Assembly (NCBI RefSeq): GCF_007845675.1
Contig: NZ_VOBR01000022.1
Span: 1 to 64,000 of the forward strand
Direction: 5' to 3'
DNA length: 64,000 nucleotides
Source of the DNA: Lentzea tibetensis
GTDB lineage: Bacteria > Actinomycetota > Actinomycetes > Mycobacteriales > Pseudonocardiaceae
Part shown: piece after piece, positions 29,225 to 48,086 of the stretch
Layout of the letters: the number at the start of each line of letters is the position of its first letter
Position numbering within the stretch: position 1 is the stretch's first letter
The notes under the pieces: model-generated
Told to the model about the DNA's origin: nothing
What the model saw: the letters and a program-made list of their open reading frames with translations, nothing else
Database searches by the model: none
Program-made: the position numbers and the translations under genes

Positions 29225-29716
29225 TCAGGAAGTGGAAACCGCTGATTTTTCGGATCCGTTTCGAATGGTCGGGTCGTAATCCTTCCGGGGGATGAAGCGC
29301 AGTACGAAGCGGATGACGAGGAAGGCCGGGAACACGACCGCGGGCAGCGTGCTGGCCAGGAACAGGATCGGCCCCATGATCAGCGGGTGGATGCGCATGG
29401 AGCTCTCGCGGTTCATCAGGTACATCCACCTGCCGATGGCGAGGTCCCAGGCGATGATCTGCGCCCACGCCATCGTCGCGCCCTCCGGGCTGCCGATGAT
29501 CGCGATGAACCCCTCGACCGTCGGGCTCCAGGCGAACTTCAGCAGCTCGGGGATGATCGCGAGTCCCAGGTAGAAGAAGATCCCCAGCGGCCCGACGATG
29601 ATCCACGGCGAGTCGATGATCTTCTTGGTCCACTTCCAGTTCGGCGCGAAGATCATCAACGCCCAGAACGGCGTGACGAGGTGGAAGGCCAGGAAGAAGA
29701 GGTCGTCGATGCTCAT
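29225..29716 (-). CDS. ABA4-like family membrane protein (copy 2)
   Basis: 163 residues with four membrane helices. LVTPFWALMIFAPNWKWTKKI, SPEGATMAWAQIIAWDLAIGRWMY and the GPILF helix agree with the ABA4-like family (DUF4281). Plant ABA4 members are needed for neoxanthin formation; bacterial members have no assigned reaction. The start ATG overlaps the stop of the membrane protein upstream (ATGA). A second copy is at 32572-33000; both end in the same 15-bp sequence around the stop codon. Confidence 0.75.
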   Translation of the reverse strand: MSIDDLFFLAFHLVTPFWALMIFAPNWKWTKKIIDSPWIIVGPLGIFFYLGLAIIPELLKFAWSPTVEGFIAIIGSPEGATMAWAQIIAWDLAIGRWMYLMNRESSMRIHPLIMGPILFLASTLPAVVFPAFLVIRFVLRFIPRKDYDPTIRNGSEKSAVSTS

Positions 29717-30654: not shown

Positions 30655-32231
30655 GGGGCGAACGCGAGGAGGACGCGGCTGTGCGGCGAGTTGAAGTTGC
30701 CGCGGTAGCCGGACTGGACGAAGACCATGCCGCGCGACACGACCACGCCGCCGCCGGGGCCGCCGACCACGTTGCCGCGGCCCATCACCCCGTTGACGCC
30801 GCGGACGTCCTGGACGGTGTCGTAGGTCCACAGCACCTTGCCGGTGTCGGCCGCGTACGCGCGGACCTTGCCGTCGCTGCTGCCCAGGTACACGACGCCG
30901 GGCGTGCTGGAGACCGGTGCGCCGTGCGCGAGCGCGCAGTCCGGCTGTCCGGCCGCGCCGCCGGTGGTGCAGCCGTCGGCCGGGTTGGGGGTCGCCCACA
31001 GGACCTTGCCGGTCAGCGGGTCGACGGCGAACAGCGTGCCGGGCTTGGCGTTGAACGTGGCGATGTAGAGGCGTTTGCCGTCGTAGCTGGAGCCCCACTG
31101 GATGCCGGACTGGCCGCCGTTCGGCACGGCGACGCCGAGCTGCCTGCGCCACACCACCTGGCCCGTGCGCGCGTCGAACACGTGGTAGACCCCGGACTTC
31201 TGGCCTGCTCCGACGAGCTTGCGGCCGCCCGCGGTGAACAGGTTGGGCCCCGTGCCGATGTCGTAGTCCAGGTGCGTGCCGTCGGTGAGGCCGGTGCAGA
31301 AGCCCTCGGGGCTCGGCTCGGTGCAGGCCCAGCGCCAGGTGTCCGCGTCGGTCACCTGGTTGGTCCACTTCACCGCGCCGGACCGGGTGTCGAGCGCGAG
31401 CATCGAGTCGAACTCGCCGCCGCGCCCGGAGTAGTTCTGGCCGGTGCCCACGTACAGCGTGTGGTCGCGGGGGTCGATGACCGGTGAGCCCCACACCCCG
31501 GCGCCGGACGGCTCGAACCGCTTCGCGCCGTTGGGCCAGGTGCCCGCTTCCTTCGGCTCGGGCACCGTGTAGTGCCGCCACGCCAGCGCGCCGGTGTTGG
31601 CGTCGTAGGCGTCGACGTGCCCGCGGAACGTGCAGCACGCGTAGTCGCGCGGCATCGCGGTCTCGCCGCTCGAGATGCCGATGAACACCTTGCCGTCGTG
31701 GACGATCGGGGAGCCGGTGGCCGAGCCGCGGGTGTTGGTGTCCATCCGCGTCGCCCACGACAGGCGTCCCGTGCGCTGGTCGACCGCGTAGAGGTACGCG
31801 CGGTTGTCGCCGAAGTAGATCTTGCCGCCCGCGATCGACGGGCTGTCGGTGTTGAAGATGATCGTGCCGGGCGGCGCCGGGTCGACGGCGGTGAGGTCGA
31901 ACGTCCACCGGTCGGCGCCGGTGCGGGCGTCGCGGGCGTAGAACTTGCCGTCCGGGCCGCCGAAGTAGACGGTGTCGCCGACCACCGCGGGCTGGCTGCG
32001 GACGAGCTTGCCCTCGGACGGCGGGTAGGCGAAGGCCCACTTCAGCTTCAGCCCGCCGACCGTGTGCCGGTTGACGCGCCACTCGGCGGCGTTGTGCCTG
32101 GTGCCCGACAGGTCCTTCTGCCAGCCCGGCCAGTCCGCGCTTCTCAGCGGGTGCGCCGGCGTTGTGCTCGCGGGCGCGGCGCTCACCAGAACGGCGGCAA
32201 TGACCAGCAATGGGAGGGTTCGGTTCAACAT
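30651..32231 (-). CDS. secreted PQQ-binding-like beta-propeller protein
   Basis: 526 residues. Signal peptide about 1-32. The mature protein is an eight-bladed-type propeller with repeated blade motifs such as GTIIFNTDSPSIAGGKIYFG, YAVDQRTGRLSW, AVDPLTGKVLWAT and YAADTGKVLWTYD. A vicinal Cys pair (DYACCTFRG) recalls the disulfide near PQQ in quinoprotein dehydrogenases, and the overall layout resembles polyvinyl alcohol dehydrogenase. No cytochrome c motif (CxxCH) is present, so electrons would leave by another carrier. AGGGAG before the ATG at 32231 fixes the start. First gene of a three-gene operon. Confidence 0.78.
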   Translation of the reverse strand: MLNRTLPLLVIAAVLVSAAPASTTPAHPLRSADWPGWQKDLSGTRHNAAEWRVNRHTVGGLKLKWAFAYPPSEGKLVRSQPAVVGDTVYFGGPDGKFYARDARTGADRWTFDLTAVDPAPPGTIIFNTDSPSIAGGKIYFGDNRAYLYAVDQRTGRLSWATRMDTNTRGSATGSPIVHDGKVFIGISSGETAMPRDYACCTFRGHVDAYDANTGALAWRHYTVPEPKEAGTWPNGAKRFEPSGAGVWGSPVIDPRDHTLYVGTGQNYSGRGGEFDSMLALDTRSGAVKWTNQVTDADTWRWACTEPSPEGFCTGLTDGTHLDYDIGTGPNLFTAGGRKLVGAGQKSGVYHVFDARTGQVVWRRQLGVAVPNGGQSGIQWGSSYDGKRLYIATFNAKPGTLFAVDPLTGKVLWATPNPADGCTTGGAAGQPDCALAHGAPVSSTPGVVYLGSSDGKVRAYAADTGKVLWTYDTVQDVRGVNGVMGRGNVVGGPGGGVVVSRGMVFVQSGYRGNFNSPHSRVLLAFAP

Positions 32232-32245
32232 GATTCTCCCTGACT

Positions 32246-32270
32246 GTTGTTTCCGAGACAACAAAAGAAA
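32246..32270 (-). promoter_or_regulatory. palindromic leader element before the propeller operon
   Basis: GTTGT-N7-ACAAC (32246-32262) followed by AAAAGAAA. It matches the element before paralogue A. The gap 32232-32571 (340 bp) is AT-richer than its surroundings and should hold the promoter of the propeller operon; nothing else in it can be assigned. Confidence 0.45.
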
Positions 32271-32571
32271 CCGGGTCGGGCAGACCGGTTTTCTGTAAAC
32301 CTTCTCGGACTCGAATGTAGTCAGGGTGCAGATAGTCGTCCACCTAGTCTCGATTGGTGAACGTGTGAACTGTTGCCCCGTATCTCAATGGGAAGTGAAT
32401 GGCATTTCTGCTGGTCAGTAGCCTTGTTGCGAATGTGAGAGCGCTCTCGACATGCAGGTGTTCCGGAAACAATTAGAGCTTGCCGGATGATTTACTAGGG
32501 GAACGACTGGACGTGGGTGTTCAACGCCGAGCTATTCCTTTTGCAGTAAGGTGGAAATGTCGCAGACAGGT

Positions 32572-33000
32572 TCAGGAAGCGACCGGTGACCTGCGGTACC
32601 GGCGGACCGCGAGGAATACGGGTAGTCCGACAGGAGACAGCAGGATCGTGCCCACCATGATCGGCGCCATCAGCAACGGGCTGATGTCCAGCCGCCTGCT
32701 CTCCAGGTACATCCAGCGCCCGATGAACAGGTCCCACGCGAGCACCTGGGCCCAGATCAGTGCCGCGCCTTCGGGTGTGCCGACGAACGCGGTGAACTCG
32801 CCGAGCTCGGGGGTGCTGACGACCGCCCACAGCTCGGGCAGGCGGCTGGCCGCGAGCACCGCGAAGATCGCCAGTGGCGGCAGGACGATCAGGGGTGACT
32901 CGCTGACTTTGTGGGTGAACCACCACTTCGGGAAGAGGATCATCAAGGCCCAGAAGGGTGCGACGAGCAGGAACGTCAGGTCGAACAGTGTCGTGGTCAC
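32572..33000 (-). CDS. ABA4-like family membrane protein (copy 1)
   Basis: 142 residues from GTG 33000, which overlaps the stop of the upstream membrane protein (GTGA). Four membrane helices; LLVAPFWALMILFPKWWFTHKV, TPEGAALIWAQVLAWDLFIGRWMY and the following helices are the same family pattern as copy 2. It lacks the C-terminal tail of copy 2. Together with paralogue C it forms a two-gene unit controlled from the MerR intergenic region. Confidence 0.75.
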   Translation of the reverse strand: MTTTLFDLTFLLVAPFWALMILFPKWWFTHKVSESPLIVLPPLAIFAVLAASRLPELWAVVSTPELGEFTAFVGTPEGAALIWAQVLAWDLFIGRWMYLESRRLDISPLLMAPIMVGTILLSPVGLPVFLAVRRYRRSPVAS

Positions 33001-33869
33001 GCGTAGCTCACCTGCTTCACCGGCCGGACGGCCCACAGGCTAGCGGCGCCGGTCAGAGCGGCGAGTCCGGCGTACGCGGTGACCGTGAGCGCGTCCGGGC
33101 TGGTGACCGGCTGGCCGCGCAACGCCTGCCACGCTGTGATCAGGAAGAGGCCGAAGTAGCCGATGCCGAGCACCCAGGCGAGCCGCGGCGTCGCCCAGCG
33201 GCCGAGCAGTGCGATCACGATCGGCAGCACCTGCACCGCGTGGATGCCGACGAAGTGCGGCACGCGCATGTCGCCTGCCTCGGTGCTCCAGCCGGTGATC
33301 GCCATGTACGACCCGCCGTCCGGCGCGCCGACGCTGTGCGCGCCGAGCGTGCCGCCCGCCATGCTCTGGCCGGGCATGGGCCGGGTCATGAGGAACGCGA
33401 TGCCGAGCCCGAAGAACGCGACCACCAGTCCGAGCCGGATCGACCAGGCCATGGCCTGGTTCTCGAACCTGGTGCGCAGCAACAGGATCGCGATGATCGC
33501 GTGGAAGACCCAGAGCGCGACGATCGTGGTGCCCATCAGCGAGAACAGCGCGCCGTCGAGCGTCGTCTCGAAGTTGAAGTGGCTGCGCTTGCCGCGGACC
33601 ACCTGGCCGACGATCACGGCCATCTCGGCCGTGCCCGCGACGGCGACGAGCGTGCCCGCCCACCAGCCGAGCTTCTGGTGGCGGGGGCTGAGGTACCTGA
33701 GGAACCAGGCGAGCGTGAAGCCGTACAGGGCGAGCGAGATCGCGAACTTGAGCGGCTTGAACCAGATCGGCGACCCGACGAGCACGCGGTCGTCCACCAG
33801 CAGTCCGATCACGCTGATCGGGATCAGTGCGGTCATCAGTGTCCCGAAGACCATCAACGGGCGGTGCAT
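32997..33869 (-). CDS. multi-spanning membrane protein, paralogue C
   Basis: 290 residues with about seven membrane helices and the shared motifs LLVDDRVLVGSPIWFKPLKF, RGKRSHFNFETTLD, GAHSVGAPDGG and DMRVPHFVGIHAVQ. GGAGGA 4 nt before the ATG at 33869 marks the start. Closest in context to paralogue B: both are followed at once by an ABA4-like gene. Divergent from a MerR regulator, which probably controls it. Confidence 0.68.
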   Translation of the reverse strand: MHRPLMVFGTLMTALIPISVIGLLVDDRVLVGSPIWFKPLKFAISLALYGFTLAWFLRYLSPRHQKLGWWAGTLVAVAGTAEMAVIVGQVVRGKRSHFNFETTLDGALFSLMGTTIVALWVFHAIIAILLLRTRFENQAMAWSIRLGLVVAFFGLGIAFLMTRPMPGQSMAGGTLGAHSVGAPDGGSYMAITGWSTEAGDMRVPHFVGIHAVQVLPIVIALLGRWATPRLAWVLGIGYFGLFLITAWQALRGQPVTSPDALTVTAYAGLAALTGAASLWAVRPVKQVSYA

Positions 33870-33882
33870 CGCTTCCTCCAAG

Positions 33883-33908
33883 AGTAGATAGCGGCACTCT
33901 CTACTATC
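33883..33908. promoter_or_regulatory. divergent MerR operator
   Basis: AGTAGA at 33883-33888 and TCTACT at 33900-33905 form an 11-bp-spaced palindrome, extended by GATAG/CTATC. It lies between paralogue C and the MerR gene, as expected for an autoregulated MerR-type switch. Confidence 0.5.
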
Positions 33909-33927
33909 GGAAAGGTACACTATCCAA

Positions 33928-34596
33928 ATGCGGATTGGCGAGCTGTCCAAGCGAAGTGGTGTCCCGGTGCCGACGATCAAGTACTACCTGCGCGAGGGAC
34001 TGCTGCCCGCGGGCGTGCTGACCAGCCCGAACCAGGCGCACTACGACGAGTCGCACCTGCGCAGACTCCGCCTGGTGCGCGCACTGATCGACGTCGGCGA
34101 GCTGTCGATCTCGTCCGTGCGCGACGCGCTCAGCGCCATCGACGCCTCGGACGAGTCGCTGCACGTGAAGCTCGGCCAGGTGCAGGAGGCCATCAGCCGC
34201 GCCCCGTCCACACCGCTCGACGACGAGTCGGTCCGCGAGGCCGAGGCGTTCATCGCCCAGTACGGGCCTCTCGAGGGCTACGACATCGAGTGCAGCGGCG
34301 TCAGCCGCATGCTGGCCGCCGTCCTGTCCGCCGCGCGGAGCCTGGGCCACGACAAGTTCGGCGAGAACCTCGGTGCCTACGTCGAGGGGATGCGGATCAT
34401 CGCCGAGGCCGACATCGAGTACGTGATGCGCCGGGCCACGTCCGTCGACGACGTCGTCGAGTCCATGGTCGTCGGCACGATCCTGGGGGATGCGGCGATG
34501 ATCGCGGTGCGCCGGCTCGCGCACGCCCAGGAGTCCGCGAAGCGGATCGGTGACAGCGCCGCTCGTGCGAGTGCGGCTCGTGAGGGGGAGCGGTGA
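33928..34596 (+). CDS. MerR-family transcription regulator
   Basis: 222 residues. Residues 1-70 are the MerR winged helix (RIGELSKRSGVPVPTIKYYLREGLLPAG). A helical segment LSISSVRDALSAIDASDES follows, then a C-terminal effector domain of about 130 residues with a single Cys. No metal-binding Cys cluster is seen, so a small organic ligand is more likely than a metal. Divergent from the paralogue C/ABA4 unit. Confidence 0.85.
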   Translation: MRIGELSKRSGVPVPTIKYYLREGLLPAGVLTSPNQAHYDESHLRRLRLVRALIDVGELSISSVRDALSAIDASDESLHVKLGQVQEAISRAPSTPLDDESVREAEAFIAQYGPLEGYDIECSGVSRMLAAVLSAARSLGHDKFGENLGAYVEGMRIIAEADIEYVMRRATSVDDVVESMVVGTILGDAAMIAVRRLAHAQESAKRIGDSAARASAAREGER

Positions 34597-37389: not shown

Positions 37390-38526
37390 GTGAGTCAGGA
37401 CCGGGCCAAGGCGTTGCTGCAGCGTGTGCCACTCGTCGACGGCCACAACGACCTGCCGTGGTCGCTCCGGGACTTCTTCGGTGAAAATTCAACCGACAAC
37501 GTCTTCGACACGGCCGCGAAAGTCGATCTGACCACCGTTCAGCCGAAGCTCCACACCGACTTCGTGAAGGCCCGCGAGGGCGGTCTGGGCATGCAGTTCT
37601 GGTCCGTCTACATCCCGTGCAGGCTCGAGGGCGACAGCGCCGTCACCGCCGTGCTGGAGCAGATCGAGCTGGTCCACGAGCTCACCGAGCGCTACCCGGA
37701 CCAACTCGGCATCGCCACGAGCGCGGACGAGGCCGAAGCCGTGTTCGCCTCCGGCCGGATCGCCTCGCTCATCGGCGCCGAGGGTGGCCACAGCATCAAC
37801 TCGTCCATCGGCGTGTTGCGCGCGCTGCGGCGCCTGGGCGTCCGCTACATGACGCTCACCCACAACGACAACACCCCGTGGGCCGACTCGGCCACTGACC
37901 AGCCAGAACACGACGGGCTGACGGAGTTCGGCAAGGACGTCGTGCGCGAGATGAACCGCATCGGCATGCTCGTCGACCTGTCGCACGTGGCGCCGAGCAC
38001 CATGCACGACGCGCTGGCGGTTTCCGCCAAACCGGTGATCTTCAGCCACTCGTCCTGCCGGGCGGTCGCCGACCATCCGCGCAACATCCCGGACGACGTG
38101 CTGGGCAAGCTCGTCGACAACGGCGGTGTGGCCATGATCACATTCGTGCCCGACTTCGTGTCCCCGCGTGTCGCCGGGTGGGACGGCGCACTGCGCGCCG
38201 CGATGACGGCCGCGGGGGAGAAGCACGCCGACCTCGAGGCCCGGCAGAAGTTCGCCGACTCGTGGACCGAGGGCGGTCCACGCCCGGTCGTGACGATCGC
38301 CGACGTCGTCGCCCACCTCGACCACGCCCGCGAGGTCGCCGGCGTCGACCACATCGGGCTCGGCGGCGACTACGACGGCGTCCGCGAGCTGCCGGAAGGC
38401 CTCGAGAACGTCTCCTGCTACCCGGCCCTGTTCGGCGCGCTGCTCGACAACGGCTGGTCGGAGGACGACTGCGCCAAGCTCGCCGGCCAGAACGTCCTCC
38501 GCGTGCTGAGGGACGCCGACCGCTGA
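37390..38526 (+). CDS. membrane dipeptidase (peptidase family M19)
   Basis: 378 residues from GTG 37390, which has AGGAG 6 nt upstream. Zinc ligands of renal dipeptidase-type enzymes are visible: LVDGHNDLPW (HxD), IGAEGGHSI (bridging Glu), VDLSHVAP and FSHSSCRAV (His), and GLGGDYDG (Asp). It hydrolyses dipeptides, including D-amino-acid-containing ones. No signal peptide is seen, so it is probably cytoplasmic. Apparently a single gene. Confidence 0.9.
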   Translation: MSQDRAKALLQRVPLVDGHNDLPWSLRDFFGENSTDNVFDTAAKVDLTTVQPKLHTDFVKAREGGLGMQFWSVYIPCRLEGDSAVTAVLEQIELVHELTERYPDQLGIATSADEAEAVFASGRIASLIGAEGGHSINSSIGVLRALRRLGVRYMTLTHNDNTPWADSATDQPEHDGLTEFGKDVVREMNRIGMLVDLSHVAPSTMHDALAVSAKPVIFSHSSCRAVADHPRNIPDDVLGKLVDNGGVAMITFVPDFVSPRVAGWDGALRAAMTAAGEKHADLEARQKFADSWTEGGPRPVVTIADVVAHLDHAREVAGVDHIGLGGDYDGVRELPEGLENVSCYPALFGALLDNGWSEDDCAKLAGQNVLRVLRDADR

Positions 38527-38564
38527 CGGTGTCGACCGACGTGGCTCGGCCAGGTCGCCGGAAG

Positions 38565-38588
38565 TCCGGATATCCGGATATCCGGATG
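38565..38588. repeat. triple TCCGGATA repeat
   Basis: Three adjacent 8-bp units, TCCGGATA, TCCGGATA and TCCGGATG. Each pair also makes a palindrome. It lies after the dipeptidase stop and before the 40-bp-spaced palindromes. Confidence 0.7.
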
Positions 38589-38622
38589 ACCGGACGACCG
38601 GCGCGCGGTGCGGCAGACAGCT

Positions 38623-38724
38623 GACAGTCAACTGTCGACAGTTGCGCGGTGAGTTCGCCGCCGACAGTTAACTGTCGGCAGTTCGCCGGCGGACCACCCG
38701 CAGACAGTCGACTGTCGACAGTTG
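38623..38724 (+). promoter_or_regulatory. three 40-bp-phased palindromic operators before the triterpenoid operon
   Basis: The 22-bp element GACAGTYRACTGTCGRCAGTT starts at 38623, 38663 and 38703, an exact 40-bp period. Each copy holds the perfect palindrome GACAGT-NN-ACTGTC; copies 1 and 3 also hold the overlapping palindrome ACTGTCGACAGT. Extra GACAG half-sites flank the array. The region between, 38725-38847, should contain the promoter and ends in the ribosome site GGAGGAG. A cooperative regulator binding site is the simplest reading. Confidence 0.7.
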
Positions 38725-38847
38725 GCCGTCGACAGCTTTGAGACAGACGTGGGTCCCTGGGCCCTTTCCGGTCCGCCACCCCCGGTGGTGCTCTGGAAGG
38801 GGCCGAGGAACCGCCACCCGGCCTCACCCCCATGAGGAGGAGACCGG

Positions 38848-40056
38848 GTGCGCGTCGAGAGCCCAGCCGTTGATCTGACCAACCCCGCGTGCTTCGACGG
38901 CGGGTTCCCGCACGAGTACTTCACCCGGTTGCGCCGGGAAGACCCCGTCCACTGGCACGAGGAGGCGGACGGCCCCGGCTTCTGGGTGCTGTCCAGGCAC
39001 GCCGACGTCACCGCCGTCAGCAAGGACTGGCAGACGTACTCGAGCTCGCGCGGCGGCATCGAGATCATCGACAGCCCGCCGGACGAGCTGGCCATGCTGC
39101 GGCTGCTCATGCTCTACATGGACCCGGACGAGCACACGAGCTACCGCAAGCTCGTGGTCAGGGCGTTCACCCCGCGGGTGCTGGCCACGATGCAGGACAA
39201 GATCGACCGGCTGGCCCGCGAGACCGTCGACGAGGTCATCGGCAGGGACGGCTGCGACTTCGTCAGCGACATCGCCGCACGGCTGCCGCTGCCGGTCATC
39301 GCGGACATGCTGGGCATGCCGCCGTCCGACCGGGACGAGCTCGCCGCCTGGTCGAACAAGATCCTCGGCTGGAGTGACCCGCAGTACGTCGACCAGCGCT
39401 CGGACGCCACCCAGGCCGCGATGGAGATGCTCCAGTACGCCGCCGAGCTGGCCGCCCGCAAGCGCGTCGAGCAGGGCGACGACCTCACCTCGCAGCTCGT
39501 CACCGTCGAGGTCGACGGCGAGAAGCTGAGCGACCTCCAGTACGGACTGTTCTTCCTGATGCTCGCGATCGCGGGCAACGAGCCGATCCGCAACCTGATC
39601 TCGCAGGCGATGCTCGCGTTCTCCCGGTTCCCCGCGCAGTGGGACCTCCTGCGCGAGGTGCCGACGCTGATGGACACCGCCGTCGACGAGATGATGCGGT
39701 GGGCGTCGCCGACCATGCAGTTCCGCCGCACCGCGACGCGGGACCACGCGCTGCACGGCAAGGTCATCAAGGAGGGCGACAAGGTCACCACGTGGTTCGT
39801 CTCGGCGAACTTCGACGAGACCGTGTTCGCCGACCCGTTCCGCCTCGACATCACCCGATCGCCCAACCCGCACGTGGCGTTCGGCGGTGGCGGCCCGCAC
39901 TACTGCATCGGCGCGCACATGGCCCGCGTGCAGTCGGCGGCGATGTTCCGCGAGCTCACCACCCGCCTGCCGGACATCCGGCTGGACGGTGAGGTGCAGC
40001 GGCTGCGGTCGAACTTCGCCCACGGCATCAAGAGCATGCCGGTGCGGCTGAGGTGA
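38848..40056 (+). CDS. cytochrome P450, CYP125-like
   Basis: 402 residues from GTG with GGAGGAG upstream. The haem motif is FGGGGPHYCIGAHMAR, ExxR lies in DEMMRWASP. The run LMLAIAGNEPIRNLISQAM aligns with the I-helix of steroid-C26 hydroxylases (CYP125: AGNETTRN). The conserved acid-alcohol pair is changed: the Thr that guides oxygen activation is Pro here. It probably oxidises a triterpene or sterol-like skeleton, but may do unusual chemistry. First gene of the seven-gene operon; its stop overlaps the next start (GTGA). Confidence 0.88.
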   Translation: MRVESPAVDLTNPACFDGGFPHEYFTRLRREDPVHWHEEADGPGFWVLSRHADVTAVSKDWQTYSSSRGGIEIIDSPPDELAMLRLLMLYMDPDEHTSYRKLVVRAFTPRVLATMQDKIDRLARETVDEVIGRDGCDFVSDIAARLPLPVIADMLGMPPSDRDELAAWSNKILGWSDPQYVDQRSDATQAAMEMLQYAAELAARKRVEQGDDLTSQLVTVEVDGEKLSDLQYGLFFLMLAIAGNEPIRNLISQAMLAFSRFPAQWDLLREVPTLMDTAVDEMMRWASPTMQFRRTATRDHALHGKVIKEGDKVTTWFVSANFDETVFADPFRLDITRSPNPHVAFGGGGPHYCIGAHMARVQSAAMFRELTTRLPDIRLDGEVQRLRSNFAHGIKSMPVRLR

Positions 40057-41048
40057 CCGAGGTACTGGTCACCGGTGCGGCGGGTCATCTCGGCGCGAAC
40101 CTGGTGCGGCAGCTCGTCGCGGACGGCGAGTCGGTGCGCGTGCTGGTCCGGCCGGGCAGCGACGACTCGGGGCTCGCCGGGCTGGACGTGCGCCGGTTCG
40201 AGGCCGACCTGCGCGACGCGACGGCGCTGAGGCCCGCTGTGCGCGGGGCGACGCGGCTGTTCCACTGCGCGGCGGTCATCTCGACCGTCGCCGGTGGTGA
40301 GCGGGAGATCTACGCCAGCAACGTGCTCGGCACCCGCAACCTGCTCGACGCCGCGCTGGCCGAAGGCGTGGAGCGGGTCGTCGTCACCGGCTCGTTCGGA
40401 GCGGTGGGTCACCTGCCCGACCGGCCGAGCGACGAGCGGGTGCCGTTCGACCCCTTCACCCCGCACACCGCTTATCAGGCGACCAAGGTCCTCGTCGCGC
40501 ACGAGGCGTTGCGCGCGCACGCCGACGGGCTCGACGTCGTGCTCGCCACGTCGTGCGCGATCGTCGGACCCCACGACTACCTGCCGTCGCGCATGGGACG
40601 TCTGCTGCTGCGGTTCGCGAACGGGCAGCTGCGCGCGTACATCGACGGCGGGTTCGAGTTCGTCGCGGCGCGCGACGTCGTCGCCGGGCACCTGCTCGCG
40701 ATGGCCAAGGGCCGGTCCGGCGCCCAGTACCTGCTGGGCAGCGGCTACCGGTCGATGGACCAGCTGATGGCGACGTTCGAGGAGGTCACCGGCAGGCGGC
40801 GGCCCCGGCTGAAGCTCCCGCCCGCGCTCGTCGGCGGCGTCGGCCGGGTGCTCAGCCCGTTGCTCGCGAGGACCGGCCGCGAGCAGCTGCTCACGCCGGC
40901 CGCCGTGCGGCTGCTGACCCAGGGGCGGCGGGCGGACTGCACGCGCGCCCGCGTCGAGCTCGGCTACGCGCCGACGTCCGTCGAGGACGCCATCCGAGAG
41001 GCGCACGACGACTTCGTGCGACGCGGACTGATCCGGAGGCAGTCGTGA
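40053..41048 (+). CDS. 3beta-HSD/NSDHL-like NAD-dependent dehydrogenase
   Basis: 331 residues, an extended SDR. VLVTGAAGHLGANLVRQL is the cofactor loop. TGSFGAVGH and YQATK give the Ser and YxxxK catalytic residues. LATSCAIVGPHDYLPSRMGRLLL resembles 3beta-hydroxysteroid dehydrogenase/C-4 decarboxylase relatives. In bacterial sterol synthesis an NSDHL-like enzyme (SdmB) acts with a Rieske oxygenase (SdmA) to remove a C-4 methyl. Here a Rieske gene follows directly with GTGA overlap, which supports a similar role by inference. Confidence 0.82.
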   Translation: MTEVLVTGAAGHLGANLVRQLVADGESVRVLVRPGSDDSGLAGLDVRRFEADLRDATALRPAVRGATRLFHCAAVISTVAGGEREIYASNVLGTRNLLDAALAEGVERVVVTGSFGAVGHLPDRPSDERVPFDPFTPHTAYQATKVLVAHEALRAHADGLDVVLATSCAIVGPHDYLPSRMGRLLLRFANGQLRAYIDGGFEFVAARDVVAGHLLAMAKGRSGAQYLLGSGYRSMDQLMATFEEVTGRRRPRLKLPPALVGGVGRVLSPLLARTGREQLLTPAAVRLLTQGRRADCTRARVELGYAPTSVEDAIREAHDDFVRRGLIRRQS

Positions 41049-42094
41049 CACCACCCTCGTTCGAGGCCGCGCGCACGCGGCACCAGAAAGCGCGCGCGGC
41101 GGGCCTGCACCCCGACTACTGGTACGCGGTCGAGTGGGACCACGCCGTGAAACCGGGCCAGGTCGTCGAGATCGTGTTCTGGAAGAAGTCGATCGCGCTC
41201 TACCGCGGTGAGGACGGCGTGCTGCGCGCGGTGGACGACCGGTGCGCGCACCGTCAGCTGAAGCTGTCCGCCGGGAACGTCAAGGGCTGCAACCTCGTGT
41301 GCCTGTACCACGGGTGGGAGCACGGCGAGGACGGCAGGATCGCGCACATCCCGCACGAGCGGTTCGGCAAGCAGATCCCGAAGTCGAAGATCACCACCTA
41401 CCCGGTGCAGGTGCGGCACGGGCTGATCTGGATCTTCCCCGGTGATCCGGCGCTGGCGTCGGTGCGCGAGGTGCCCGCCATCCCCGAGCTCGCGGAGGGC
41501 TGGCCGAGCGTCCCGGTCGACGCGACGTGGAACGGCCACCACTCGATGATCATCGACAACGTCAGCGACTTCACCCACGAGTACCTGCACGAGAAGTACA
41601 AGCCGTTCTCCGACCCCGAGCTGACGAAGCTGGAGGTCGTCGACGACCGCGTGCACGTCGGCTACCGCACGAAGGTCGGCGGCGACCCGAAGACCGAGAT
41701 GGTGCTCAACCCGAGCATCGACCGCGGCAGCATCGAGCTCTGCTACTCCTACCCGTACCAGTGGTCCGACACGGACGGGAAGATCAAGCACTGGTGCTTC
41801 GTGCTGCCGATCGACGAACGCCGCACGCGCGTGTTCTTCCTCTTCTTGTTCGCGCCGGACACCTACCGGCTGCCGTTCACCCGCATCCGCATGCCGCTGG
41901 CGATGGTGCGCGGCATGTTGAAGATCGCGAAGCGCGCGTACATCGTGCCGCTGCTCGAACAGGACCGGGTCGCCATCGAGGCCGAGCAGGTCGCCCACGA
42001 GCTGCACCACGACCTGCCGATCCCCGAGCTCAACCCGGCGGTGCAGGAGTTCCAGCGGCTGACCATCAGCAAGTGGGAAGAGGCGCTGGCATGA
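41045..42094 (+). CDS. Rieske non-haem iron oxygenase (KshA/SdmA-like)
   Basis: 349 residues. The [2Fe-2S] ligands are DDRCAHRQ and CLYHGW (CxH and CxxH). The mononuclear iron site is DNVSDFTHEYLHEKY (D, H, H). The size and single-subunit form fit the steroid-oxygenating group (KshA, DAF-36/Neverland, SdmA). It needs a ferredoxin/reductase that is not encoded nearby. Likely hydroxylates the cyclised triterpene, perhaps at C-4 methyl, together with the SDR upstream. Coupled on both sides by 4-bp overlaps. Confidence 0.87.
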   Translation: MTPPSFEAARTRHQKARAAGLHPDYWYAVEWDHAVKPGQVVEIVFWKKSIALYRGEDGVLRAVDDRCAHRQLKLSAGNVKGCNLVCLYHGWEHGEDGRIAHIPHERFGKQIPKSKITTYPVQVRHGLIWIFPGDPALASVREVPAIPELAEGWPSVPVDATWNGHHSMIIDNVSDFTHEYLHEKYKPFSDPELTKLEVVDDRVHVGYRTKVGGDPKTEMVLNPSIDRGSIELCYSYPYQWSDTDGKIKHWCFVLPIDERRTRVFFLFLFAPDTYRLPFTRIRMPLAMVRGMLKIAKRAYIVPLLEQDRVAIEAEQVAHELHHDLPIPELNPAVQEFQRLTISKWEEALA

Positions 42095-43308
42095 CCGTGA
42101 ACTCCGATGCTCCGGCCACCTTCGAGTACAACCCCTTCGCGCCGTCGTTCGACGAGGACCCGCACCCCACCTATTCCTTTCTGCGCGAGCACGCGCCGGT
42201 GTTCTTCTGGGAGCTGGCAGGCGTCCACCTGATCAGCCGGTACGCCGACGTCGACCGGTTGCTGAAGGACCGGCGGCTCGCGTTGCCCGGTCAGGAACCG
42301 GACCGGCCCGAGCCGCGCACCGAGGGCGGCGCGATCCACCGCAGGCTGATGGACAACGGGTTCTTCGGGCTCGGCAAGTCCGACCACGTCCGGGTGCGCA
42401 GGCTCGTGACGCCCGCGTTCGCGCCGCGCGAGGCCGCGCGCAGGCACGCGGCGATCGAGTCGATCGTCAGCGCGATCGTCGACTCGTGGGGCGACCGGTC
42501 CGAGGTGGACGTCGTCACCGACTTCGCCCGGCACATCCCGGTGCGCGTGATGAGCCACCTGCTCGCGATCCCGGAGGAGCACGACGAGCTGTTCGTCCGG
42601 TTCTCCCAGTCGATGCTCGCGACCGTCGTGCCGTGGCTGAGCCCCGAGGAGTTCGACGCGCACGTCGAGGTGTTCCCCCCGGCGATCGAGATGATCACGT
42701 CGCTGATCGAGGAACGCCGCGTCACACCGGGCGACGACCTGTTGAGCCAGCTCGTGAGCATGTGCGACGAAGGCGACCGGTTGTCGGTCGACGAGCTGCT
42801 CGGCATCGTGGCGTCGCTGATCGCCGCCGGCGCGGAGACGAGCGTCCACCTCATCGGCTACGGCATGCGCACGCTGCTCGACCACCCGGACGACCTGGCC
42901 GCGATCCGCGCCGACTTCTCGTTGCTGCCCAACGCTCTGGCCGAGGCGTCGCGGTACGACTCGTTCGCCAAGCACGGGCTGAGCCGCACGGTGCTGGAGG
43001 ACTGCACGCTGCACGGCGTCGAGCTGAAGGCGGGCAGCAAGCTGGTGATGCTGGTGGCGAGCGCACTGCGCGACCCGGCGGTGTTCGACGAACCCGACCG
43101 GTTCGACATCCACCGCGAGCCGACGCGGCTGATGTTCGGCGCCGGGTCGCACTTCTGCCTCGGCCACGCGCTGGCGCGCGGTGAGGCGGAGACGGCGATC
43201 GGGTTGCTGCTGCGGCGTTTCCCCGCGTTGCGCTCGGCCGGTCCGCCGGTGTTCGAGCCGAACGCGGTGCGCCGGTCCATGGTGTCCCTGCCGGTGCACC
43301 TCCGCTGA
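42091..43308 (+). CDS. cytochrome P450
   Basis: 405 residues. I-helix LIAAGAETSVHLIG has the acid-alcohol pair (ET). The haem motif is FGAGSHFCLGHALARGE; EASRYDSFAKHGLSR contains ExxR. Soluble bacterial type. Start ATG overlaps the Rieske stop, and its own stop overlaps the HpnC-like start (TGATG). Substrate probably the same triterpene skeleton. Confidence 0.87.
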   Translation: MTVNSDAPATFEYNPFAPSFDEDPHPTYSFLREHAPVFFWELAGVHLISRYADVDRLLKDRRLALPGQEPDRPEPRTEGGAIHRRLMDNGFFGLGKSDHVRVRRLVTPAFAPREAARRHAAIESIVSAIVDSWGDRSEVDVVTDFARHIPVRVMSHLLAIPEEHDELFVRFSQSMLATVVPWLSPEEFDAHVEVFPPAIEMITSLIEERRVTPGDDLLSQLVSMCDEGDRLSVDELLGIVASLIAAGAETSVHLIGYGMRTLLDHPDDLAAIRADFSLLPNALAEASRYDSFAKHGLSRTVLEDCTLHGVELKAGSKLVMLVASALRDPAVFDEPDRFDIHREPTRLMFGAGSHFCLGHALARGEAETAIGLLLRRFPALRSAGPPVFEPNAVRRSMVSLPVHLR

Positions 43309-44114
43309 TGCTCGACCAGGCCGCGTCCGAGAACCTCCCGGTGGCCGCGCGGGTGCTGCCCCGCGCGGTCCGCGGGCACCTCGTGTCCATCCACGGGTAC
43401 TGCCGGCTGGTCGACGACCTCGGCGACGAGGCGTCCGGCGACCGGCTGTCGCTGCTGGACGCGGCCGAGCGCGAGCTGGGGCGCGTGTACGACGGCACGC
43501 CGCGCTCGCCCGCGTTCCTCGCGTTGCAGGAGACCGTCCGGGCGTGCGGCATCCCGCGCGAGCCGTTGCAGGACCTGATCTCGGCCAACCGGATGGACCA
43601 GCACCAGCGCGACTACGCGGACTTCGCGGCGCTGACGTCGTACTGCGCGCTCTCGGCGAACCCGGTCGGGCGGCTGGTGCTGCACGTGTTCGGCGTCGCG
43701 ACCGACGAGAACATCGCGTTGTCCGACCCGATCTGCACGGCGCTGCAGCTGCTGGAGCGCCTGCTGGACGTCTCGGAGGACTACCACCGCGGCCGGGTGT
43801 ACCTGCCGCGCCAGGACATGCGCCTGTTCGGCTGCACCACGCTCGACCTCGCGTGCTACCGCACGTCACCCGCGGCGCGCGCCGTCGTCGAGTACGAGAC
43901 CGCGCGCGCCGACCAGCTGCTGACCGCGGGCTCGCCGCTGATCGGCAGGCTGCGCGGCTTCGCCCGGATCGCGGTCGCCGGCTACGTCGCAGGCGGCCGG
44001 GCGACCGCGGCCGCGTTGCGCCGCAACGACTTCGACGTGCTCGGCCAGGAGATCAAACCGTCACGGACCGGTGCGCTCACCCAGTGGGCGCAGCTTCTCG
44101 TCAGGAGCCGATGA
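43308..44114 (+). CDS. hpnC: HpnC-like squalene/phytoene synthase family enzyme
   Basis: 268 residues. The opening SENLPVAARVLPRAVRGHLVS and first aspartate-rich motif YCRLVDDLGDE (D36-E41) are typical of HpnC. The second is LDVSEDYHRGRVYLP. In hopanoid producers HpnC converts presqualene diphosphate to hydroxysqualene, with HpnD before and HpnE after it. Neither partner gene is in the window, so they are either elsewhere or this enzyme works alone. It supplies the C30 substrate for the cyclase at the end of the operon. Confidence 0.83.
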   Translation: MLDQAASENLPVAARVLPRAVRGHLVSIHGYCRLVDDLGDEASGDRLSLLDAAERELGRVYDGTPRSPAFLALQETVRACGIPREPLQDLISANRMDQHQRDYADFAALTSYCALSANPVGRLVLHVFGVATDENIALSDPICTALQLLERLLDVSEDYHRGRVYLPRQDMRLFGCTTLDLACYRTSPAARAVVEYETARADQLLTAGSPLIGRLRGFARIAVAGYVAGGRATAAALRRNDFDVLGQEIKPSRTGALTQWAQLLVRSR

Positions 44115-45404
44115 ATGAGCGACGCCGCCGTTGCGCAGGGACCACCCGGCACACTGGTTCTGGGCAACCTCAAGGACTTCCGCGCGGACCTGCTCGCGTG
44201 GCTGCTCGACTGCGCCCGCACGTACGGCGACTTCGTGCCCGCGCGGCTCGCCGTGCGGCGCGGGTATCTCGTCAGCGGACCCGACCTGGTCGCGGACGTG
44301 CTCGTCCGCAAGCACCAGGACTTCCGCAAGGTGTTCCTGTTGCGCAACAACAGGTTGTTCCTCGGCGGCGGGCTGCTCACCAGCGAGGGGGAGCAGTGGA
44401 AGCGCAACCGCAGGCTCACCCAGCCGTCGTTCCACCACGACCGCATCGCGGACTACACGAGCGTGATCGTCGACGAGAGCACGAAGCTCGCCGACGGGTG
44501 GCGCTCGGGTGACATCATCGACGCGCAGGACGAGATGGCCGTGCTCACGCTGCCGATCATCACCCGCACCCTGTTCGGCGGCAGCGAGGTGCGCATCGAC
44601 GACGTCGCGCGGGGGCTGGACGTCATCCAGCAGCGGATGAAGGAGCGCTACCAGGCGCTGGTCCCGTTGCCGGACACCGCGTGGACGCCGCGCAACGTGC
44701 GGCTGCGCCGGGCGGTGAAGCGGCTCGACGGCGTCATCGCCGGGCTGATCGCGGGCCGGCAGGGCCTGCTCGGCGAGCTGTCCGAGGCGGGCATGACCGA
44801 CGCCGAGCTGCGCGACGAGGTCATGACGATGCTGTTCGCCGGGCACGAGACGACGGCGCTCACGCTGTCCTGGGTCTGGTACCTGCTGTCCGAGCACCCG
44901 CACGAGGAGTGGCAGCTGCACGACGAGCTGGACGCCGTGCTCGGTGGACGCCCGCCCACCGCCGAGGACGTGCCGAAGCTCGAAGGCGTCACGCGGCTCG
45001 TCAAGGAGGTCATGCGGCTCTACCCGCCGGTGTACGCGTTCGGCCGTGACGCGCGAACGGACACGACAATCGGAGAACACCGGATCAAACGCGGTCAGAC
45101 CGTGATCATCGCGCCCTGGGTGCTGCACCGGGACCCGCGGTTCTTCCCGGAACCGGACGAGTTCCGCCCCGGCCGGTGGACGCCCGAGTTCGAACGCGCG
45201 CTGCCCAGGTTCGCGTACTGCCCGTTCGGCGGCGGCGCCCGGATGTGCATGGGCAAGGGGTTCGCGATGACCGAGGCCGTGCTGGCGATCGCGACGATCG
45301 CGCAACGGTTCCGGTTGCGGCACAAGGGAGACCCGATCGAGCTGTGGCCGACGTTCACGCTGCGCAGCAGGCACGGCATGCCGATGGTCCTGGAGGAACG
45401 ATGA
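44115..45404 (+). CDS. cytochrome P450, long-form (CYP3A/CYP102-like clan)
   Basis: 429 residues. I-helix MLFAGHETTALTLSW, ExxR in KEVMRLYPP, the PERF-like FRPGRW and haem motif PFGGGARMCMGKGFAM place it in the clan of CYP102/CYP110/CYP120-type enzymes, which often act on terpenes and fatty acids. It differs from the two other P450s of the operon, so three distinct oxidations are likely. Start directly abuts the HpnC-like stop; its own stop overlaps the cyclase ATG (ATGA). Confidence 0.88.
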   Translation: MSDAAVAQGPPGTLVLGNLKDFRADLLAWLLDCARTYGDFVPARLAVRRGYLVSGPDLVADVLVRKHQDFRKVFLLRNNRLFLGGGLLTSEGEQWKRNRRLTQPSFHHDRIADYTSVIVDESTKLADGWRSGDIIDAQDEMAVLTLPIITRTLFGGSEVRIDDVARGLDVIQQRMKERYQALVPLPDTAWTPRNVRLRRAVKRLDGVIAGLIAGRQGLLGELSEAGMTDAELRDEVMTMLFAGHETTALTLSWVWYLLSEHPHEEWQLHDELDAVLGGRPPTAEDVPKLEGVTRLVKEVMRLYPPVYAFGRDARTDTTIGEHRIKRGQTVIIAPWVLHRDPRFFPEPDEFRPGRWTPEFERALPRFAYCPFGGGARMCMGKGFAMTEAVLAIATIAQRFRLRHKGDPIELWPTFTLRSRHGMPMVLEER

Positions 45405-47257
45405 CGCTGCTCGATCTCCAGCACGCCGACGGGCACTGGGAGGGCGAGGTGGTGTGGAACACCATGCTGCTGTCCCAGTACCTGATGACGCACCACATCC
45501 TCGACTCCCGTGCACTGTCCGAAGTGGACCTGAAGGACGCCAGAAAGCACTACGAGCTGACCGTGCTGGACGACGGCTCGTGGCCGTTCCACTGCGACGG
45601 CGAGGAAGGCTCGCTCTACGTCACGACGCTCGCGTACGTGGCACTGCGGCTGATCGGCACACCGGCCGACGACCCGCTCACCGCCAGGGCCCGCGCGTGG
45701 ATGCACCGCAGGCCGCACGGCGTGGCCGCGGTGCCCACGTGGGGCCGGATGTGGCTCGCGATGCTGGGCCTCTACCCCTATGAGGGCATCAACCCGATCC
45801 CGCCCGAGCTGGCGCTGCTGCCGGGCGTCGTGCAACGGATGTACACCCACACCAGGCACGTCTACCTCGGCCTCGCCTACCTGTACGGGGCGCGGTTCCA
45901 GCACACCGAGATCAACGACGAGATCCGCGCCGAGCTGCACGGTGACAAGACGAACTTCCGCAGGCACGAGATCGACGACAGCGACCTCTTCCAGCGCCCG
46001 ATCTGGCCGCTGCGCCGCGGCTACGACCTCCTCACCGCCTACGAACGCCGCCCGTCGCGAAAGCTGCGGGCCAAGGCGTTGCGGAGGTGCGCCGAGCTGG
46101 CCGAACGCGAGCTCGCCGCGTCGGACGGCCAGTGCCTGTCGCCGGTCAACGGCCTGCTCGCGTGCCTCGTCCTCGCCCACGCGGGGGAGCCGAGAGAACA
46201 GGTGCTGAAGCGGCTGACGAAGCTCGACGTGTGGCGCTGGCAGGACGAGGACGACGGCCTGCGGATCACCGGCGCCAGCTCCGCCATCTGGGAGACCTCG
46301 TTCGCGATGCGGGCACTGGTCGCCGGCGACGCGCCGGAGGAACCGCTGCGGAAGGCCCACGAGTGGCTGCTCGGCGCGCAGGTCGTCGACGAGCTCCCGC
46401 CCGAGCTGCGCGAAGGCCGTGACCGCGTCGCGGGCGGGTGGTGCTTCTTCCGCGACCGGACGATCCGCTGGCCGGTGTCGGACTCGACCGCCGAGGCGCT
46501 GTCCGCGCTCCTGCTGACCGACGACGCGATCGGCACGCGCACGCCGGCCGACCGGGCGCGGCTAGCCGCCGAGTTCATCCTGACCAGGCAGAACCCCGAC
46601 GGCGGCTTCGGCACGTACGAACGCACCCGCGCGCCGGGCTGGGCGGAGAAGCTCAACCCGTCGGAGATGTACCACGGCTGCATGACCGACCTCTCGCACG
46701 TCGAGTGCACGGCGTCCTGCGTGTCCGCGCTGGTCAGGTACCGCAGGAGGTGGCCGGACCCGCGCGTGGACGACGCCGTCGCCGCGGGTGTCGCGTTCCT
46801 GCGGACGCAGCAGCGGCCGGACGGGAGCTACCGGGGCGCGTGGGGCATCAACTTCACCTATGCCGCGTTCTTCGTGGTCGAGGCGCTCACCGAGGCGGGC
46901 GTGCCGGTCGGCGATCCGGCCGTCGCGGGCGTGGCGGACTGGTTGCTGCGGCACCAACGGCCCGACGGCGGCTGGGGCGAGCACCACCTGAGCTGCCGCA
47001 CCGGCGAGTACGTCCCGCATCCGCACGGTCAGCGAACCATGACCGGCTGGGCGGTGCTCGCACTGACCAGGGCGATCGGCCCGGAACACCCCGCGGTATT
47101 GCGCGCCGGACAATTCCTCGATTGGCCCCAAACAATCCACGAGGCGGCGTCGGGTGTATTTTTCGGCACCGCCGTGCTCGACTACTCGCTGTACAGGGTG
47201 ATCTTTCCCGTTTGGGCTACAAATGTGGTCGAAGGATTCATGAGACAGCCTTCATGA
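45401..47257 (+). CDS. oxidosqualene-cyclase-like triterpene cyclase
   Basis: 618 residues, shorter than eukaryotic oxidosqualene cyclases (about 730). QW-type repeats are visible (QNPDGGFGTYE, QRPDGSYRGAW, QRPDGGWGE). The acid motif is WPVSDSTAEALSALLL with D361. This aligns with VSDCTAE of lanosterol/cycloartenol synthases, not with the DxDDTA of squalene-hopene cyclases. The tract MTDLSHVECTASC (C436), AWGINFTYAAFF and the C-terminal YSLYRVIFPVWA also follow the OSC pattern. The Cys next to the catalytic Asp is Ser. The substrate could be oxidosqualene or squalene; no epoxidase gene is present. It is predicted to bind the membrane face. Last gene of the operon; its 3' end overlaps an antisense LuxR gene by 20 bp. 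Confidence 0.85.
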   Translation: MTLLDLQHADGHWEGEVVWNTMLLSQYLMTHHILDSRALSEVDLKDARKHYELTVLDDGSWPFHCDGEEGSLYVTTLAYVALRLIGTPADDPLTARARAWMHRRPHGVAAVPTWGRMWLAMLGLYPYEGINPIPPELALLPGVVQRMYTHTRHVYLGLAYLYGARFQHTEINDEIRAELHGDKTNFRRHEIDDSDLFQRPIWPLRRGYDLLTAYERRPSRKLRAKALRRCAELAERELAASDGQCLSPVNGLLACLVLAHAGEPREQVLKRLTKLDVWRWQDEDDGLRITGASSAIWETSFAMRALVAGDAPEEPLRKAHEWLLGAQVVDELPPELREGRDRVAGGWCFFRDRTIRWPVSDSTAEALSALLLTDDAIGTRTPADRARLAAEFILTRQNPDGGFGTYERTRAPGWAEKLNPSEMYHGCMTDLSHVECTASCVSALVRYRRRWPDPRVDDAVAAGVAFLRTQQRPDGSYRGAWGINFTYAAFFVVEALTEAGVPVGDPAVAGVADWLLRHQRPDGGWGEHHLSCRTGEYVPHPHGQRTMTGWAVLALTRAIGPEHPAVLRAGQFLDWPQTIHEAASGVFFGTAVLDYSLYRVIFPVWATNVVEGFMRQPS

Positions 47258-47459
47258 GAACGGTTTCGTGATTCCCGAGCCAGATCGCGACGGCTTCCGC
47301 GCGGTGTCGTGCGTGGAGCTTGCCGAAGATGCTGTTGATGCGGTTCTTGACGGTTTTCACGCTCACGTGCAGGCGCGCCGCGATCTCGTCGTTGCACAGG
47401 CCGCGTGCGATGAGCTCCATCGTCTCGATTTCCCGACTGGAGAGAACTGCGCGCGTCAT
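47238..47459 (-). CDS. stand-alone small LuxR-type HTH protein
   Basis: 73 residues from ATG 47459 with GAGGAG 5-6 nt upstream. It is almost only a LuxR/NarL helix-turn-helix: SSREIETMELIARGLCNDEI and SVKTVKNRINSIFGKL. No receiver or sensor domain is present, as in GerE-type regulators. Antisense overlap with the end of the cyclase suggests it may regulate the triterpenoid operon, by position only. Confidence 0.75.
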   Translation of the reverse strand: MTRAVLSSREIETMELIARGLCNDEIAARLHVSVKTVKNRINSIFGKLHARHRAEAVAIWLGNHETVLMKAVS

Positions 47460-47543
47460 CCTCACTCCTCTGGCTGGAACGCTCGTACCGAACCATAGAG
47501 CAGCGTATTGAGATGAATGACCGCACCGAATAACGGAGGGTGA

Positions 47544-48086
47544 TCAGCGTTGGCCGAAAATGGTGACGCCGACCGGCGGTAGTCCGACGGCTGTCGCCAT
47601 CAGTTCGTAAAACGCCGTGCCGTGTTCGGCGAGCTCGCCGTCCAGCGCCGTCCAGGACGCGCGCAACTCCAGGTCGTCGGTGCGCGCGGGACCCGCGATG
47701 TCGCCGAACCGGGCGGACGACGTCTGCGTGACCGTGCCGCCGAGCGCGGTGAACCGCGCACCGGACAGCTCCAGCGCCTCGGTCAGCCACGACCAGCCGA
47801 CCTCGGGCAGCAGCGGGTCGCTCGCCAGCTCGTGGTCCAGCTCGACGCGCACGTAGGCGACGACGCGGAGCACTCCGCCCCACGCCTCGTCGCCGTCCGG
47901 GTCGTGCAGCAGCACGAGGCGCCCCGTCGACAGCTCGTCGGACGGGCCGGAGACCTCCGCGGTCAACGCGAACGCCCACGGCGCGAGCCGCTGCGGCGGG
48001 CGCACCTCGGTGAGTTCGATCTCGGGCCGGGTGCGAACCGACTTGAGCGTCCCCACCGCCCGGCGGAAGAGTTCCGGCTCGGTCAC
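47544..48086 (-). CDS. DUF3000 family protein
   Basis: 180 residues from GTG 48086. The pattern FRRAVGTLKSVRTRPEIEL, LAPWAFALTAEV and LVLLHDPDGDEAWGGVLRVV is that of DUF3000, found in actinobacteria next to hemE and RNase D. Function unknown. Divergent from hemE with 62 bp between starts. Confidence 0.85.
   Translation of the reverse strand: MTEPELFRRAVGTLKSVRTRPEIELTEVRPPQRLAPWAFALTAEVSGPSDELSTGRLVLLHDPDGDEAWGGVLRVVAYVRVELDHELASDPLLPEVGWSWLTEALELSGARFTALGGTVTQTSSARFGDIAGPARTDDLELRASWTALDGELAEHGTAFYELMATAVGLPPVGVTIFGQR

Follow-up and report, generated by a model that had tools for sequence, protein, structure and literature searches.

The window analysed here, a stretch of 64,000 nucleotides from Lentzea tibetensis (contig NZ_VOBR01000022.1, positions 1 to 64,000), carries seven genes in one overlapping row on the plus strand (38848-47257), called G1 to G7. 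The junctions between them are 4, 4, 4, 1, 0 and 4 bp in order, all of which are overlaps apart from the 0-bp junction of G5 and G6. Family calls were made by Pfam and NCBIfam profile searches of the operon proteins. G1 (38848-40056) encodes a CYP125-family cytochrome P450 (P450) of the steroid C26-hydroxylase type with the I-helix motif AGNEP, G2 (40053-41048) an SdmB-like (NSDHL-like) short-chain dehydrogenase (SDR)/decarboxylase, G3 (41045-42094) an SdmA-like Rieske C-4 methyl oxygenase, and G4 (42091-43308) a P450 whose best solved relative is the P450 epoxidase EpoK. They are followed by G5 (43308-44114), which encodes a squalene/hydroxysqualene synthase of the HpnC type, G6 (44115-45404), a P450 gene flanked by those of the squalene synthase and the cyclase, whose product is a candidate squalene epoxidase (SQE), and G7 (45401-47257), which encodes an oxidosqualene-cyclase-type (OSC) protein with the motif VSDSTAE and an Ile at the position of human C449. 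The original prediction had described seven same-strand genes with junctions of 0-4 bp for three P450s, an NSDHL-like SDR, a Rieske oxygenase, an HpnC-like enzyme and an OSC-like cyclase, and both the layout and the enzyme classes are borne out by the frame coordinates and the profile searches, respectively. By its gene content, the predicted pathway is of the steroid/triterpenoid type and belongs, as a variant, with the known bacterial sterol clusters, from which it differs in that neither SQE nor CYP51 was detected, HpnC is encoded in the operon, the CYP125-type P450 carries a Thr to Pro exchange and the active site of the cyclase is changed at two positions. The operon is probably a horizontally acquired island for a specialised steroid-like triterpenoid made by the steps proposed below.

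G7 passes the cut-off of TIGR01787 (418 bits, cut-off 322.7) and lies below that of TIGR03463 (630 bits, cut-off 851), which is passed by none of the 396 genomes of a phylum sample and none of 391 genomes of the family; with the hopene cyclase model, it scores 232 bits (cut-off 431). The best solved relative of G7 is lanosterol synthase (316 bits), and hopene cyclase reaches 148 bits. A phylogenetic tree of 57 cyclases was calculated, which contains cyclases of 46 of 80 OSC loci of other bacteria (thinned), G7, a second cyclase of L. tibetensis encoded on contig C14 and, as an outgroup, nine of 21 cyclases of other genomes, which are of the hopene type. In this tree, G7 is found inside the OSC clade with a support of 100/100, sister to the OSC of Goodfellowiella coeruleoviolacea (98/99) and outside the squalene-hopene cyclase clade; the C14 protein is located on a long branch and its position is unsure. 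A DXDD motif is not present in G7, and the profile scores and the position in the tree exclude that it is a hopene cyclase. The OSC-like cyclase of the original prediction thus falls among the bacterial OSCs, and the placement inside hopene cyclases that would have spoken against this prediction did not occur; G7 is an OSC-type cyclase, and the cyclisation of 2,3-oxidosqualene is its predicted reaction.

The equivalents of human D455, H232, W387, Y503, C533 and W581, to which we assign the active-site roles generally assumed for the human enzyme, are kept in G7 (human numbering derived from the alignment of G7 and lanosterol synthase). The catalytic Asp is part of the motif DSTAE, in which the position of human Cys456 is occupied by Ser, compared to Cys in all 46 relatives that were drawn from the 80 OSC loci for the residue comparison. 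The position of human C449, which is not separated from the catalytic Asp by an alignment gap, is Ile in G7, His in 45 of these relatives and Gln in one. As a result of these two active-site changes, neither of which occurs in the 46 relatives, the product of G7 is possibly not lanosterol. Bacterial OSCs reportedly also make arborane triterpenols; therefore, the product was not predicted from the Val found at position 453 (human numbering) of G7. Val at this position has been taken as a mark of lanosterol formation (parts of PMC10152446).

The best NCBIfam model for G2, an SDR of the epimerase/3beta-HSD type, is SdmB (NF052578, 300 bits) and that for G3 is SdmA (NF052579, 365.7 bits), both under the cut-off of 600. 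An HpnA-type sugar epimerase was rejected for G2, since the HpnA model scores lower (248 bits) and an SdmA-like gene lies next door. The neighbourhoods of OSC genes in Myxococcota and Streptomyces encode SDRs that match G2 at 52-62%, and Rieske proteins encoded near OSC genes match G3 over the full length at 48-60%. The genes G2 and G3 lie side by side in an operon with an OSC gene, and a bacterial sterol C-4 demethylase pair is the best fit for their sequences, which is more specific than the original prediction.

G1 matches the chain named CYP125MRCA (488 bits) and CYP125A1 (322 bits) and shares only 43% identity with the closest paralogue detected in L. tibetensis. It is a member of the CYP125 family, and steroid C26 hydroxylation is its predicted reaction. 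CYP125A1 is a steroid C26-monooxygenase of the same family; however, G1 is encoded in an apparent synthesis operon, and its helix I reads AGNEP where CYP125 has AGNET, so that Pro replaces Thr and the acid-Thr pair is missing. AGNEP is also found in G1 of the congener G643. G4 has its best PDB match with 1q5d (EpoK, 255 bits) and was not among the matches listed at E ≤ 1e-20 in the CYP51 profile search. For G6, the best PDB match is 7wzl (224 bits), followed by plant LUT5, which we take to be of the CYP97 type, and the best NCBIfam model, albaflavenone synthase, is far under its cut-off. The helix motif of G6 is AGHETT, unlike GQHTS of CYP51, and the protein is excluded as CYP51 by a profile score of 148 bits; CYP51-like proteins encoded in 46 OSC loci score 527-725 bits.

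The genomic context of OSC genes was compared in 80 loci, the best 80 of 280 relatives in named genomes, with flanks of up to 10 kb; many contigs are shorter and the neighbour counts are lower bounds. SdmB- and SdmA-like genes adjoin OSC genes in many of these bacteria: both are present near the OSC gene in at least 43 loci and one of the pair in 7 more, while SQE is found in at least 71 and CYP51 in at least 46 of the 80 fetched flanks. This association, together with the order of G1-G4 being kept at the same place in congener G643, argues that the arrangement is not due to chance. Six Streptomyces loci (L056, L057, L062, L063, L069 and L105) all combine an OSC with SdmA- and SdmB-like genes, with the Rieske match of L056 split in two, but differ from the operon in that their OSCs form a clade of their own, which is not sister to G7; SQE is present in five of the six fetched stretches, as is CYP51 with GQHTS. 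The pathway had been called undescribed in actinomycetes. This is only partly right: the gene set of the operon is different, and no description of it was found among the open PMC papers listed by the searches, but besides the Streptomyces loci, actinobacterial genes for C-14 and C-4 demethylation are mentioned in PMC10202945, where SdmA, SdmB and bacterial sterol pathways are also covered. A bacterial 8,14-sterol reductase is the subject of PMC13277303.

The closest relative of G7, the Goodfellowiella OSC (L050; G597:C17:74508-76409), has a DCTAE motif. In the 35 kb fetched around it, no match to the Rieske, HpnC or P450 proteins of the operon was found, and there is one weak SDR match (29%). 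No SQE was detected in the Goodfellowiella genome by a five-member SQE profile.

Sterol synthesis is regarded as starting with oxidosqualene, which is usually made by SQE or a known alternative. In the L. tibetensis genome, a draft of 105 contigs that is 98.7% complete, no match to PF08491 was found over the cut-off (best score 17.8, cut-off 20.1), a search that leaves aside alternative SQE types. PF08491 detects all five bacterial SQEs tested as a control. The profile built from these five proteins, which were picked by position and similarity, gives a best score of 61 bits in the genome (76 bits on an open reading frame) compared to 130-756 bits in 71 of the 80 OSC loci, a range that includes the five profile members. 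For CYP51, a four-member profile reaches at best 302 bits in the genome compared to 527-725 bits in 46 of the 80 OSC loci, four of which were used to build the profile. As a GQHTS-type motif is absent from the scanned frame in 6 of these 46 loci, the CYP51 absence call rests on the score and not on the motif.

G5 scores 272.7 bits with TIGR03464 (HpnC), which is over the cut-off of 250.45. The 80 other OSC loci contain no match to G5 at E ≤ 1e-8, and squalene-synthase-type matches of another kind are present in ten of them; what is unusual is thus the HpnC-type gene within an OSC operon, not the proximity of a squalene synthase and an OSC. The best HpnE score in the genome is 57 bits (cut-off 283), and none of 14 control genomes passes either. 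The genome encodes two further SQS_PSY proteins, which score 174 and 81 bits with HpnD (cut-off 278.6): one is a phytoene-synthase/HpnD-like protein, and the other combines a squalene-synthase domain and a second OSC in one chain. This fusion protein of 1048 amino acids (G000:C14:97314-100460, minus strand; loci L034/L035) was identified by profile matches, with 134 bits for the synthase domain with TIGR01559 (under the cut-off) and 654 bits for the cyclase part. Its cyclase carries DGTAE, a Pro at the position of human C533 and a Tyr at that of H232. The next gene after the fusion gene, which overlaps with it, encodes a P450 (C14:95980-97317, minus strand). The matches of another kind in 10 of the 80 other OSC loci are matches to the C14 synthase domain, and they are encoded apart from the OSC. 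The expectation of the original prediction that a squalene-derived C30 scaffold is cyclised and then oxidised agrees with the gene content; the pathway is, however, not complete as read there, since SQE was not detected and neither HpnD nor HpnE scores over the cut-off in the genome.

Family membership, gene order, the undetected SQE and CYP51 and the history of the island are read from the sequence, and from these we infer substrates, step order and product of the following pathway. HpnC (G5), together with a partner encoded elsewhere, would supply squalene, the end of which would then be oxidised; one of the operon P450s, perhaps G6, is the probable but uncertain enzyme for this step. G7 would then cyclise the oxidised squalene to a tetracycle. 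SdmA-like G3 would oxidise and SdmB-like G2 would decarboxylate and reduce at C-4, thereby removing one or two methyl groups; the CYP125-type G1 would oxidise the end of the side chain (C26), and the remaining P450 may add another oxidation. As no CYP51 was detected, the C-14 methyl group should stay. The predicted product is a tetracycle that is demethylated at C-4, oxidised in its side chain and retains the 14-methyl group.

The weakest step of the proposed pathway is the epoxidase, for which a P450 of the operon, G6 or G4, is the leading guess. The case for a P450 is based on the undetected SQE, the position of G6 between the synthase and cyclase genes and the C14 locus, where a synthase/OSC fusion is paired with an overlapping P450 gene. 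Several points weigh against it and against the pathway as a whole. The P450s G6 and C14 are only 26% alike (over 364 amino acids), by which support for the two being one orthologous epoxidase is weak and this idea was dropped, and the Goodfellowiella OSC is without a match to the operon P450s in its fetched surroundings. The draft genome could miss an SQE gene. HpnC is normally partnered by HpnD and HpnE, neither of which is over the cut-off, although a squalene-synthase domain is present at C14. The SdmA, SdmB and osq_cycl scores are under the NCBI cut-offs, so that the exact activities are not assured. Finally, congener G643 keeps open frames of G1-G4 without G5-G7; the four genes can thus be maintained where no scaffold is made de novo, and imported sterols may be their substrates.

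A bacterial steroid-type pathway free of SQE, with the epoxide made by G6 or by the EpoK-like G4 or with another C30 substrate accepted by the altered cyclase, is a plausible but tentative suggestion. The C14 synthase/OSC fusion with its overlapping P450 gene and the sister OSC of Goodfellowiella without a detected SQE suggest that such a route may be usual in this family. We consider it rather unlikely that the sterol pathway is an ordinary one with an SQE that went unrecognised or is of the alternative AltSQMO type, its gene lying at another place of the genome or in a gap of the assembly. AltSQMO is named in PMC10152446, its family was outside the searches made, the genome is a 98.7% complete draft of 105 contigs, and 9 of the 80 OSC loci also have no SQE in the fetched flank; nevertheless, CYP51 is undetected as well, and the SQE in the flanks of the other 71 loci makes its absence beside G7 unusual. 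A cyclase of OSC descent that acts on a non-epoxide substrate (squalene, hydroxysqualene made by HpnC or another prenyl chain) would not need an SQE at all. The undetected SQE, which in Goodfellowiella is based on the five-member profile alone, fits this idea, as do Ser in place of Cys456 beside the catalytic acid and Ile in place of His, and HpnC without HpnE over the cut-off would give hydroxysqualene (pathway as outlined in PMC10152446). However, G7 keeps the other catalytic OSC residues and has no DXDD, and the Goodfellowiella cyclase retains DCTAE without a detected SQE, which shows that a missing SQE alone does not imply a changed substrate; we regard a non-epoxide substrate as distinctly unlikely.

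The operon is rare. OSC matches at E ≤ 1e-100 are present in 2 of the 391 genomes of the family, and G3 matches in 2 of the same 391 genomes at E ≤ 1e-70 and in 1 of the 396 genomes of the phylum sample at E ≤ 1e-60, which is L. tibetensis itself. A total of 24 congeners with hemE were found, and seven of them were opened at the site. In six of the seven, the site is empty, with the dipeptidase gene, a DUF3000-like gene (a name we presume, as NCBIfam gave no match) and hemE being adjacent. On account of this patchy distribution and the empty sites, the operon is apparently a horizontally acquired island. The seventh congener, G643, has the most similar hemE (87%) and carries G1 (82-83% identity), G2 (81%), G3 (84%), G4 (70%) and a small luxR gene (79%) at the site. 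G5-G7 are missing from this locus, and no OSC match was obtained in the G643 genome at E ≤ 1e-100. After the stop codon of G4 in G643, a scar is found whose frame YRTVIPEWIGNVAEGFV aligns ungapped to residues 598-614 of G7 with a score of 56 (500 shuffles: mean 25, maximum 42). At the DNA level, 18 of 19 bases are identical (score 33), which is reached by none of 1000 shuffles outside the luxR overlap; these bases lie at the very end of the small luxR gene, and the preceding in-frame FPVWA-like codons are therefore the stronger part. The scar rules out that G643 never had a cyclase, and this strain has most likely lost the scaffold genes G5-G7.

G1-G4 are still open frames in G643, and the ratios of nonsynonymous to synonymous substitutions (dN/dS) between the window and G643 are 0.30 for G1, 0.25 for G2, 0.19 for G3 and 0.48 for G4, the highest value, compared to 0.13 and 0.27 for two neighbours; pairwise values of this kind cannot date the loss of G5-G7. 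On average, G1-G4 are under purifying selection. A decaying operon without a product is highly improbable: the sister species is already without three of the seven genes, but the seven frames of L. tibetensis are open with tight junctions, dN/dS of G1-G4 is well under 1 and a symmetric operator-like array is located upstream. G1-G4 could also be a module that remodels exogenous 4-methylsterols of plants or fungi, to which G5-G7 were a dispensable addition. In actinomycetes, CYP125 enzymes have mainly been described in the context of sterol uptake and catabolism, and G643 has G1-G4 and no OSC match at E ≤ 1e-100. We consider this module unlikely, since the scar shows that the ancestor of G643 had a cyclase, the loss may be recent, and G1-G4 share one overlapping row with G5-G7. 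Beyond L. tibetensis and G643, moreover, no SdmA-like match was found at the set E-values in the 391 family and 396 phylum genomes, and the 48-62% relatives are encoded near OSC genes, although these loci were fetched by OSC and are biased to its neighbours.

The island for a steroid-like triterpenoid can be compared to several known systems. The sterol pathways of Methylococcus, Calothrix and Enhygromyxa share the OSC and the SdmA/SdmB-type pair with it; according to PMC10202945, they include OSC, C-14 demethylase, SdmA and SdmB, whereas the operon genome is without detected SQE and CYP51, HpnC and a CYP125-type P450 are added and the active site of the cyclase is altered. The nannosterols of Nannocystis also derive from a bacterial sterol that is oxidised repeatedly, with P450s proposed for these steps; in PMC10152446, however, the proposed genes are scattered and include SQMO, OSC, CYP51 and SdmA-C homologues, compared to one operon with a reduced set here. 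Here, an OSC, C-4 demethylation and a steroid side-chain oxidase type are combined without detected SQE and CYP51, and the set is small enough for direct tests of a new epoxidation route and of a new tetracyclic product; G643, having lost the three scaffold genes, is a natural deletion against which metabolites can be compared. In its logic, the operon would be a bacterial counterpart of fungal fusidane antibiotic clusters. The scaffold of the fusidane helvolic acid is said to be made by an OSC. The helvolic acid cluster (PMC5696383) resembles the operon in outline: it has several P450s, and an oxygenase acts with an SDR to demethylate C-4 of a steroid-like scaffold outside ordinary sterol synthesis; it is fungal, and C-4 oxidation depends on the P450 HelB1 instead of a Rieske protein, so that this is an analogy only.

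Upstream of G1, perfect copies of GACAGTYNACTGTC are located at 38623, 38663 and 38703, exactly 40 bp apart. These three 14-bp palindromes, each followed by a further half-site, form an array (38623-38738, no strand assigned). A search of the window with up to one mismatch returned only these three sites (six strand matches, all exact), while 0.21 matches are expected and none of 100 shuffles reaches six. The array is a putative operator, and one candidate regulator may be the product of the small luxR gene of the island (47238-47465, minus strand), a LuxR-type helix-turn-helix protein of 75 amino acids whose gene converges on G7 with an overlap of 20 bp. GACAGTYNACTGTC was not found at the G643 locus, and an operator shared with the C14 locus was rejected, as only single matches with two mismatches occur there. 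A scan of 38400-47600 revealed no sigma-70 promoter-like site and two terminator-like sites (2.3 expected). Just upstream of the palindromes, three tandem CCGGATAT-type units with 8-bp spacing are found at 38558-38589. Downstream of the dipeptidase gene in G643 (L138), a long hairpin of GAACCGTTATGGCCACCATGACGGAC and its reverse complement was seen by eye at the place of the palindrome array.

Among the OSC loci of other bacteria, SQE and OSC are encoded in one open frame in 52 of 79 scored loci. The fused loci are among L058-L121 (e.g., L077:296-3634 and L109:8309-11935) and come from metagenome bins that represent several phyla; fusions of this kind are already in print as "fused SMO/OSC homologs" (PMC10070321). 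Elsewhere in the window, three similar membrane-protein stretches were noticed by eye on the minus strand between 28165 and 33980 (28165-29064, 32997-33980 and the C-terminal part of 29713-32343), two of which adjoin a small membrane protein (29225-29716 and 32572-33036).

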